Shown here: one piece after another, positions 37,782 to 40,936 of the stretch
Numbering within the stretch: position 1 is the stretch's first letter
Layout of the letters: each line of letters opens with the position of its first letter
Origin: Clostridia bacterium
GTDB lineage: Bacteria; Bacillota; Clostridia; UBA1381
Reading direction: 5' to 3'
NCBI GenBank assembly: GCA_017621875.1
Contig: JAGASE010000001.1
Span: forward strand, 372,001-436,000
Length of the DNA: 64,000 bases
Program-made: the position numbers and the translations under genes
Notes under the pieces: model-generated
Seen by the model: the letters and a program-made list of their open reading frames with translations, nothing else
Told to the model about the DNA's origin: nothing
The model's database searches: none

Positions 37782-39675
37782 CATGCCTCGCAAAAAGGCA
37801 AATCCGAAAACCTTCGGAAGAGTAATTAAGCTGCTTTACAGCTATTATCCGAAGCTTCTTCCGCTGACAGCCTTTTGTATTCTTTTTTCATCGGCGTCGG
37901 CGGCTGTTCCGGATTTGCTTATTCAGCAGATAATTGCGGTAATAGAAAAATGGTATAAAACAGGTGACTGGGCATCGGCATATCCCGAAATACTGCCTAA
38001 AATCCTGTTCCTTATAGGACTTTATGTTGTGTCGCTTGCGGCGGTGATTGTCTATACTCAGTTTATGGCGTATATTACCCAAGGCTTTTTAAACAAGCTT
38101 CGCTGTACCATGTTTGACGGAATGCAAAATTTGCCTATACGCTTTTTTGACACACACAAGCATGGCGATATAATGAGCTATTACACAAATGATATCGACA
38201 CGCTTCGTCAGCTTGTTTCACAGTCTCTGCCTGCACTTATCAGAGCAGGAGCGGTTGTAATATGCGTGCTTGGCATAATGCTGTACTTCAGCGTGTGGAT
38301 GACGCTTATAGTACTTGCCGGCGTTGCGGTAATAATGCTGGTTTCCAAAAAAGTTGGAGGCGGCTCGGCAAAGTATTTTATACGTCAGCAAAAGTCTTTG
38401 GGACGTGCCGAGGGCTTTATACAGGAAATGATGAACGGACAGAAGGTAATCAAGGTTTTCTGCCACGAAGAAGAATGTAAGGCAGACTTTGATAAGATAA
38501 ACGATGCACTTTGCGAGGATAGCTGCAAGGCTCATGCTTATGCGAATATTTTGGGACCGATAATACAGAATATCGGAAATATCCTGTACGTGCTTGTAGC
38601 AGTGGCAGGCGGACTGTTTTTGATATCCGACGTACCGAACGTGGGATTTTCCGGAATGGCGTTTTCAATAAGTATTGTTGTCCCGTTCCTTAATATGACA
38701 AAGCAGTTTACGGGAAATGTAAATCAGCTTACACAGCAGATAAACTCTATAGTAATGGGTATGGCAGGTGCTGAGAGAATTTTTGCACTTATGGACGAGG
38801 CTGCAGAGGCTGATGACGGATATGTAACACTTGTTAATGCAGAGATTGACGAAAACGGAAATGTGAAGGAGACTCCGAAGCATACCGGAAAGTGGGCATG
38901 GAAGCATCCGCATGGTGACGGAACAATTACCTATACACCGCTTTGCGGCGACGTTCGACTTTTTGACGTTGACTTCGGATATGTTGAAGGAAAAACCGTA
39001 CTGCATAATGTTTCGGTATACGCAGAGCCGGGACAGAAGGTGGCATTTGTCGGTGCGACAGGTGCAGGAAAGACTACCATCACGAATCTTATCAACAGAT
39101 TTTACGATATTGCCGACGGAAAAATCCGCTATGACGGCATAAATATAAATAAGATTAAAAAATCCGATTTGCGTAGGTCTTTGGGAATTGTTCTTCAGGA
39201 AACAAATCTGTTTACGGGAACTGTAATGGAGAATATCCGCTACGGAAATCTTGAAGCAACCGATGAGGAATGTATAAATGCTGCTATTTTAGCAGGTGCG
39301 GACGATTTTATAACGCGTCTTCCGAACGGATATGATACCGAGCTTACCAATAACGGAGCAAATCTGTCACAGGGACAGCGTCAGCTTATTGCTATTGCGA
39401 GAGCTGCGGTTGCCGACCCGCCTGTTATGATAATGGACGAGGCAACATCAAGCATTGATACCAGAACGGAGTCGATTGTTCAACGCGGTATGGATCAGCT
39501 TATGAAGGGCAGAACGGTGTTTGTAATTGCACACAGACTGTCTACCGTTAAAAATTCCGATGTTATTATGGTGCTGGAAAACGGAAGCATTATCGAACGC
39601 GGAACGCATGATGAGCTTATCGCCCAAAAGGGTAAATATTATCAGCTCTACACTGGTGCATTTGAGCTTGAATAA
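37765..39675 (+). CDS. Heterodimeric ABC exporter, canonical half
   Basis: A 636-residue half-transporter with an N-terminal membrane domain and an ATPase domain whose motifs are complete: Walker A GATGAGKTT, signature LSQGQRQL, Walker B VMIMDEATSSID with the catalytic Glu, and switch His in IAHRLST. It has about 50 extra residues between the two domains (around 380-430, KETPKHTGKWAWKHPHGDG), an insertion seen in some clostridial exporters. ATG 37765 follows GGAGG at 37752-37756; longer in-frame starts overlap deep into the first gene and lack a site. It pairs with the preceding gene. Confidence 0.92.
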   Translation: MKQMNNMPRKKANPKTFGRVIKLLYSYYPKLLPLTAFCILFSSASAAVPDLLIQQIIAVIEKWYKTGDWASAYPEILPKILFLIGLYVVSLAAVIVYTQFMAYITQGFLNKLRCTMFDGMQNLPIRFFDTHKHGDIMSYYTNDIDTLRQLVSQSLPALIRAGAVVICVLGIMLYFSVWMTLIVLAGVAVIMLVSKKVGGGSAKYFIRQQKSLGRAEGFIQEMMNGQKVIKVFCHEEECKADFDKINDALCEDSCKAHAYANILGPIIQNIGNILYVLVAVAGGLFLISDVPNVGFSGMAFSISIVVPFLNMTKQFTGNVNQLTQQINSIVMGMAGAERIFALMDEAAEADDGYVTLVNAEIDENGNVKETPKHTGKWAWKHPHGDGTITYTPLCGDVRLFDVDFGYVEGKTVLHNVSVYAEPGQKVAFVGATGAGKTTITNLINRFYDIADGKIRYDGININKIKKSDLRRSLGIVLQETNLFTGTVMENIRYGNLEATDEECINAAILAGADDFITRLPNGYDTELTNNGANLSQGQRQLIAIARAAVADPPVMIMDEATSSIDTRTESIVQRGMDQLMKGRTVFVIAHRLSTVKNSDVIMVLENGSIIERGTHDELIAQKGKYYQLYTGAFELE

Positions 39676-39726: not shown

Positions 39727-39891
39727 TTAATCCTCGTCACAGCAGCGGTCTTCGCGGCGGTTCTCGCGACGGTCTTCACGACGCTCCTCGCGGCATTCTT
39801 CGCGACGATTTTCGCGACGCTCCTCACAGCGGTTTTCGTAGCATCTACGGCAGCAACAGCAACAGCAGCAACGCCTTCTGAAAAAGAACAT
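39727..39891 (-). CDS. 54-residue poly-cysteine, Arg/Glu-repeat microprotein
   Basis: On the minus strand ATG at 39889-39891 follows a near-perfect GGAGGTGA 6 bases away and the frame ends with TAA at 39727-39729. The product opens MFFFRRR, then seven consecutive Cys, then RRCYENRCEE and a run of RREN/RREE/RRED-type four-residue units, ending RCCDED. It has twelve cysteines and about 35% Arg+Glu. I recognise no family. The cysteine block could bind metal or cross-link; the charged tail should be helical. It converges on the exporter terminator and is divergent from the M14 peptidase. Too short for routine gene calling, and a longer antisense frame masks it. Confidence 0.75.
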   Translation of the reverse strand: MFFFRRRCCCCCCCRRCYENRCEERRENRREECREERREDRRENRREDRCCDED

Positions 39892-40057
39892 ATATCTCAC
39901 CTCCCGTTATGTAACGAAAGTCCGCTGTATTGTTATATTATTCCGAAGTGCGGATATATGTGAGAGACATAATTGCTGTTTTAGCCTTAAAAGCTGTCCT
40001 TTCTGTGCTTTTTCTTTTTTTGTGGGCATATAAATTATATAGAAAGGAGGGCGACAA

Positions 40058-40936
40058 ATGGGCTACGATTATAAGCAGCTGAGAGAGGATATGGACAGAT
40101 TTTTGGGAAGATTTCCGTTTGCACAAAACAGTATCATAGGCTACAGCGTGATGAAAAATCCGATACATTGTATTAAAATAGGTGATGGAGATACAAAAAT
40201 TTTTATAAATTGTGCACATCATGGGCTTGAGTACCTGACATCGGCATTTATCATGAGATTTTTAAGGGAATATGCCGCGGCGATAAAGTGCGGCGGTGAT
40301 TTTTTCGGATATAACGCGGCAGACCTCAGAAGACAAATAACGCTTTATGTAGTGCCAATGGTAAATCCTGATGGCGTAGATATCGCTGTGAACGGACTGG
40401 ATATAACCAACCCGTATCATCAAAGGCTGATAAGCCTTGTAGGGATTCACAGCTTTAACAGGGTGTGGCAGGCAAATGCGAGAGGTGTTGATATAAATCA
40501 TAACTATAATGCGGGCTGGCGTGTTGTAAAAACAAAGCCGTCGCCTACGCAGTATTCGGGACCGTATTCGGAAAGCGAGCCTGAAACTAAGGCAATAGTG
40601 GATTTTATACGCAAAGAAAAATTTGACCTTTTGATAGCGTTTCATTCGCAGGGAGGCGAAATCTATTACGATTTTGACGGAATGGTTGCGGAAAATTCAC
40701 GAGTGCTTGCGGAAAAAATGGCACAGGCAAGCGGATATGCAGTATGCACGCCTGTGGGGAGTGCAGCCTTTGGAGGCTGTAAGGACTGGTTTATAAAGGA
40801 ATTCGGAAAAGCGGGATTTACCGTAGAAATCGGTCATGGCAAAAACCCGCTGCCGATGGAGCAGCTTGATGAAATTTATGAAGAAAATGCACGGTTGATA
40901 CTTTCGTCCGTGGAGGAGCTACATGAACAGGCATAA
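40058..40936 (+). CDS. M14 family zinc carboxypeptidase (gamma-D-glutamyl-diamino acid peptidase-like)
   Basis: A 292-residue metallopeptidase. The zinc ligands lie in CAHHGLEY (H-x2-E) near residue 52 and in the later IAFHSQGGE; NPDGVD and RGVDINHNYNAGW give the substrate Arg/Asn, and FTVEIGHG the catalytic Glu. This matches bacterial M14 enzymes that cleave gamma-D-Glu-diaminopimelate bonds in cell-wall peptides, often linked with sporulation. There is no signal peptide or LysM domain, so it may act in the cytoplasm on recycled muropeptides. AAAGGAGGG precedes ATG at 40058. Confidence 0.92.
   Translation: MGYDYKQLREDMDRFLGRFPFAQNSIIGYSVMKNPIHCIKIGDGDTKIFINCAHHGLEYLTSAFIMRFLREYAAAIKCGGDFFGYNAADLRRQITLYVVPMVNPDGVDIAVNGLDITNPYHQRLISLVGIHSFNRVWQANARGVDINHNYNAGWRVVKTKPSPTQYSGPYSESEPETKAIVDFIRKEKFDLLIAFHSQGGEIYYDFDGMVAENSRVLAEKMAQASGYAVCTPVGSAAFGGCKDWFIKEFGKAGFTVEIGHGKNPLPMEQLDEIYEENARLILSSVEELHEQA

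Follow-up and report, generated by a model that had tools for sequence, protein, structure and literature searches.

The minus-strand open reading frame at positions 39727-39891 of the window (the whole stretch of 64,000 nucleotides that was analysed) is a protein-coding gene and not a chance frame. Its 54-residue product, MFFFRRRCCCCCCCRRCYENRCEERRENRREECREERREDRRENRREDRCCDED, is probably a tiny structural peptide which would be expressed late in the mother cell under sigma-K and become a disulfide cross-linked component of the spore coat or exosporium; judged from the sequence, this reading was given a probability of roughly 60%. The frame and its immediate surroundings comprise the following features:

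39727-39891, minus strand: 54-residue Cys/Arg-rich small protein with MFFFRRR, C7, an RRE(N/E/D) tail and a terminal RCCDED, recognised from the sequence, from orthologs in three congeners (G006, G008 and G003) and from codon use.
39752-39825, minus strand: tandem repeat of 12/24/36 bases coding the RREx tail, species-specific.
39897-39904, minus strand: ribosome-binding site GGAGGTGA, of which GGAGGTG and the next A are invariant in all four orthologs.
40058-40936, plus strand: divergent M14 zinc carboxypeptidase (PF00246, E=7.5e-35), a constant neighbour in all four species.

The frame begins with an ATG at 39891, 5 bases 3′ of GGAGGTGA. An alternative GTG start at 39900 would lengthen the ORF; the ribosome site fits the ATG. 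The preliminary description of a 54-residue minus-strand frame with MFFFRRR, C7, units of RREN, RREE and RRED and a near-perfect ribosome site was confirmed in all of these points. The gap that holds the ORF measures 382 bases and extends from a convergent ABC transporter gene pair, ending at 39675, to the M14 carboxypeptidase, starting at 40058. Within the 1.99-Mb genome, runs of at least five consecutive TGY triplets in any frame could be observed only inside this ORF (three overlapping matches). A tandem repeat of 12 bases (24/36), whose units differ at third codon positions, encodes the RREx tail, which is a species-specific repeat expansion. The protein contains 22% Cys and 16 acidic residues, with a net charge of about +2.

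The M14 carboxypeptidase, which is present in five genomes of the genus, was taken as the anchor for finding orthologs. The contig of G005 begins 90 bases upstream of the carboxypeptidase and was left out of the ortholog count as uninformative. Orthologs were found through DNA and gene-neighbour searches; a protein search of 61 relatives yielded weak matches only, owing to the low complexity of the sequence. A small ORF with GGAGGTGA, divergent from the carboxypeptidase, was present in all three congeners whose DNA spans the locus, the carboxypeptidase orthologs being 68-72% identical:

G006: 43 residues, 19 Cys, 15 Arg, net charge +12, MCCRIRRCCERRCCCCCRCCRRRCCRCRQDRCCCENRCCRNGR.
G008: 30 residues, 14 Cys, 9 Arg, net charge +8, MCCFFRRHCCCRRRCCRRCCCRCCCCGDRF.
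G003: 38 residues, 10 Cys, 7 Arg, net charge +6, MCCFFNRFFNRQNNSNSSCCNCECRCRRRCRWYICCNS.

The three congener proteins contain 26-47% Cys and 18-35% Arg, and all four, including that of the window, 22-47% Cys; all congeners are draft MAGs, and four orthologs are few. Kept in all four were the position, the ribosome site, the TACATA leader, a start of M-C/F-C/F followed soon by Arg, the Cys/Arg composition and the absence of Lys, while length, the C7 run, the RREx tail and net charge (about +2 to +12) varied. The in-frame TGN codons of the four orthologs were TGC (36), TGT (19), TGG (1) and TGA (0), so that 55 of 56 encode Cys, and both families of Arg codons were used (CGN 26, AGR 23). This codon use indicates constraint at the level of the protein. 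On the opposite strand a comparable ribosome site is lacking, and the codon composition accounts for the open stretches there. Since position, ribosome site, Cys/Arg composition and the mixing of synonymous codons recur in three congeners, the frame is more than a chance occurrence, as had been argued earlier from the C7 run and the strong ribosome site. The preliminary description had named two observations that would speak against the gene, a lack of homologous frames in close relatives and conservation restricted to the opposite strand; instead, homologous frames were found in G006, G008 and G003, and the conserved frame was the minus-strand ORF. It is proposed that selection acts on composition, i.e. 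Cys and Arg, and not on order, and that length and repeat pattern therefore drift quickly. The low-complexity, TGC/CGN-rich DNA with its tandem repeats might also represent a non-coding RNA or simple-repeat DNA with an incidental ORF. Both readings were rejected as extremely improbable, given the predominance of TGY among the TGN codons, the interchange of the two Arg codon families, the recurrence of ribosome site and frame in four species, and a sole Rfam match far under threshold (21.7 bits versus 114).

The genes on the downstream side varied between species. The end of the ABC transporter adjoins the small ORF in two of the four species (window and G003), whereas the next gene is presumably a heavy-metal P-type ATPase in G008 and what we take to be a class-V aminotransferase-like gene in G006, both by reading of the sequence. 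The constant partners of the small gene are thus the promoter region and the carboxypeptidase. Poly-Cys short ORFs of mycobacteria are known cysteine-responsive attenuators, and this precedent would allow for a leader peptide controlling a downstream gene by attenuation. Such a role is most improbable and was largely refuted by the gene layout: no co-oriented gene follows in the window, the next gene being the convergent ABC transporter, the downstream genes differ between species, and hairpins could be read from the sequence right after the ORF in G003 and G008. A small Cys-rich ORF adjoining an ABC exporter pair in the window, the end of which is conserved in G003, might likewise encode a RiPP precursor or a bacteriocin in which the Cys residues are modified. 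The ABC genes are, however, convergent and, in G006 and G008, absent from the locus, a maturation enzyme is lacking alongside, and the orthologs show no constant division into leader and core, which makes a precursor peptide very improbable.

The region between the ribosome site and the carboxypeptidase contains two further features:

39905-39915, minus strand: conserved leader stretch around TACATA, which shortly precedes the ribosome site and does not vary among the four orthologs.
39934-39961, minus strand: predicted sigma-K-type promoter AC-N17-AATAATATA, with the -35 AC at 39961-39960 and the -10 element at 39942-39934; a counterpart is present in all four orthologs.

The form AC-N16/17-[A/C]ATANNNTA was located 67-70 bases 5′ of the start in all four orthologs, within an aligned block. 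The strict -10 form CATANNNTA was seen only in G003, the first -10 base being A instead of C in three of the four. By Markov shuffles, the chance of the motif was 0.5-7% per ortholog, a value to be read with the motif having been relaxed (A for C) after inspection and the four orthologs being non-independent tests. The control consisted of 133 regions lying upstream of longer genes, drawn from the window and from related loci; the relaxed motif occurred in three of them and the strict motif in one. A pattern search revealed no sigma-A -35 box in any of the four leaders, and a weak sigma-70-like match (9/12) from a generic promoter scan overlaps the sigma-K-type element in the window. The sigma-K promoters of C. 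difficile have a -35 AC and a CATA-type -10 resembling that of sigma-E, sigK's own being CATATAAT (PMC3789822). The leader element is thus conserved and has the form of a sigma-K promoter, and its use by sigma-K is considered probable as part of the spore-shell reading as a whole. The TACATA stretch could be a leader element or the site of a regulator.

Other poly-Cys small ORFs of the family, picked solely by their Cys runs and ribosome site, offered a less biased test of the promoter. The strict motif AC-N17-CATANNNTA was found at -59 in L014, L020 and L089, i.e. in three of five such ORFs, and the strict -10 form CATANNNTA at -41 in L100 and L101, so that the -10 element was present in all five; as L014 and L089 are orthologous, and L100 and L101 likewise, these represent about three independent cases. 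Like the window gene, all five are short, with Cys runs of 4-5 or more, a strong ribosome site and a sigma-K-type promoter or -10 element. Unlike the window protein, they are of a membrane type with a hydrophobic segment (WIWIIIIVVLLF, ILWVLIIIVIV), contain few Arg residues and lie at different loci, and the likeness in sequence is limited to the Cys runs.

The ORFs in L014 (reverse strand), L089:788-1030 and L020:1450-1632 (minus strand) form a second kind, MGLFGNNN..WIWIIIIVVLLFC..CCCCCD, which includes a hydrophobic segment; they gave no Pfam or NCBIfam match above the cut-off. A third kind, MNECCEKMEQECCCCKKK...ILWVLIIIVIVSCMCN, of 50-51 residues, was seen in L100:1515-1667 and L101:1515-1670. 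In L021 a long frame from about position 324 (plus strand) encodes a PEPPCCE/W repeat with about ten copies of PEPPCC and ends in CCDCCCCCD. A longer protein, similar in three other genera (L012, L015 and L018), is interrupted by CCCCCD/CCCCCE, inserted after ...ALGAKLVDIKD and before FDLASVPESV.

The genome of the window encodes a SigK (G000:C14) at 293.9 bits, just below the cut-off of 298.65, a second, weaker sigma homolog at 255 bits, which is probably sigE, and SpoIVA at 753.6 bits; SpoIVA matches were obtained in all nine members of the genus. YabG, a protease that is a usual signature of sporulation and would serve as a promoter control, gave no match in any of the nine genus genomes, SigK and SpoIVA notwithstanding. 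A gene for a SigK-like sigma factor (G008:C47:35811-36443, 275 bits) was seen in G008 on the strand of the small gene, some 3 kb downstream of it. A spore-coat role had been suggested at first because of sporulation genes nearby. That basis was weak, as yabP/yabQ are about 5.8 kb from the small ORF, with unrelated genes in between, and the downstream neighbours differ by species; the idea itself gained from the sigma-K-type promoter in all four orthologs, from promoters of this type on other small poly-Cys genes of the family and from SigK and SpoIVA.

In the proposed role, sigma-K in the mother cell would transcribe the small gene late in sporulation, as suggested by the form of the promoter. 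The peptide would be added to the surface of the forming spore; there, its numerous Cys residues may form disulfides with one another and with further proteins of the coat or exosporium and so cross-link the shell, and the Arg and acidic residues could make charge-charge contacts with neighbouring proteins. The ORF, its orthologs, the codon constraint and the conserved promoter element of sigma-K form are the observations that support this role. The exosporium proteins CdeC and CdeM of C. difficile are Cys-rich, monocistronic and controlled by sigma-K, CdeM being unique to C. difficile, with 161 residues and 8.7% Cys (PMC6101409). The window gene resembles them in being Cys-rich, monocistronic, lineage-restricted and of predicted sigma-K type, and in having repeats with CC and basic residues. 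CdeC and CdeM are thought to cross-link the exosporium, whereas the spore location of the window protein is a prediction; they are also much longer, which speaks against the proposed role, and have no recognisable sequence relation to it, judged through Pfam and NCBIfam models. CotY, CotZ and ExsY of the Bacillus crust and exosporium are Cys-rich and self-assemble with strong disulfide cross-linking (summarised in PMC6101409). The window protein shares their Cys richness and lacks a Pfam match. CotY, CotZ and ExsY are larger folded proteins with a Pfam family of their own. Net charge, from about +2 in the window to +12 in G006, also counts against the role and varies so widely that no single charge-based function fits all orthologs. 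Since the predicted type of expression, the monocistronic layout, the Cys richness and the narrow distribution are shared with CdeM, a small disulfide cross-linker is the most likely role.

Protamines are small, dominated by Arg and Cys, and poorly conserved in residue order, and the proteins of G006 and G008, with their net charges of +12 and +8 and 44-47% Cys, would suit a peptide that condenses nucleic acid. In contrast to protamines, the window protein with its 16 acidic residues is nearly neutral, and its promoter is of the mother-cell type and not of the forespore (sigma-G) type, so that the product would not meet the spore chromosome; a protamine-like function is therefore quite improbable. 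A metallothionein-like peptide binding Zn, Cu or Cd, or a thiol buffer scavenging oxidants, in the mother cell or spore would be in line with the Cys contents and with the P-type ATPase gene in G008. This gene is not adjacent in the other species, the Cys residues form contiguous runs whose spacing changes completely between orthologs without a CxC/CxxC pattern being kept, no Pfam or NCBIfam match was obtained, and the promoter indicates late sporulation. Metal binding, which the preliminary description had put forward, is thus possible without having found support in the analysis, and such a peptide is considered unlikely.

No relatives of the window protein were found in Pfam, NCBIfam, PHROGs or PDB, the orthologs likewise gave no Pfam or NCBIfam match, and no NCBIfam model, SCIFF and other curated small Cys peptides included, was matched at E-values of up to 10. 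Scans for the ribosome site with C4 in 95 genomes of the order, and with MCC or RRCC in 391 genomes of the class (matches checked), yielded no true relative beyond the genus, and of 48 loci of the M14 carboxypeptidase in named genomes only those of congeners had the small gene. Most matches of a C-run scan of 70 family genomes were other frames or short accidental ORFs. As these scans require particular motifs, a relative as loose as that of G003 could be missed. A search for C5-C8 blocks with RREx tails, as proposed earlier, would miss the family, since neither is conserved. The named congeners, RGIG4552 (roe deer rectum), SUG1531, SUG1222 and SIG456, are uncultured gut MAGs. Candidatus Avimonoglobus, which NCBI assigns to Eubacteriales incertae sedis, and Ornithomonoglobus belong to the family.

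Tentatively, the spore-forming gut Clostridia of this family may rely on sets of tiny poly-Cys peptides, made under sigma-K, as a disulfide glue of the spore shell, each peptide being confined to a single genus or a few genera and retaining only its composition and promoter, with the window gene as the Cys/Arg member. The gene is a clean case in which place, promoter and composition are kept while the sequence is almost free, and which similarity searches miss. If the peptide is a spore-shell cross-linker, the idea of a Cys-rich exosporium, known from CdeC/CdeM and CotY, would extend to peptides of 30-54 residues and to uncultured gut anaerobes. If true, a sigma-K promoter together with a Cys run would provide a simple rule for finding further genes.
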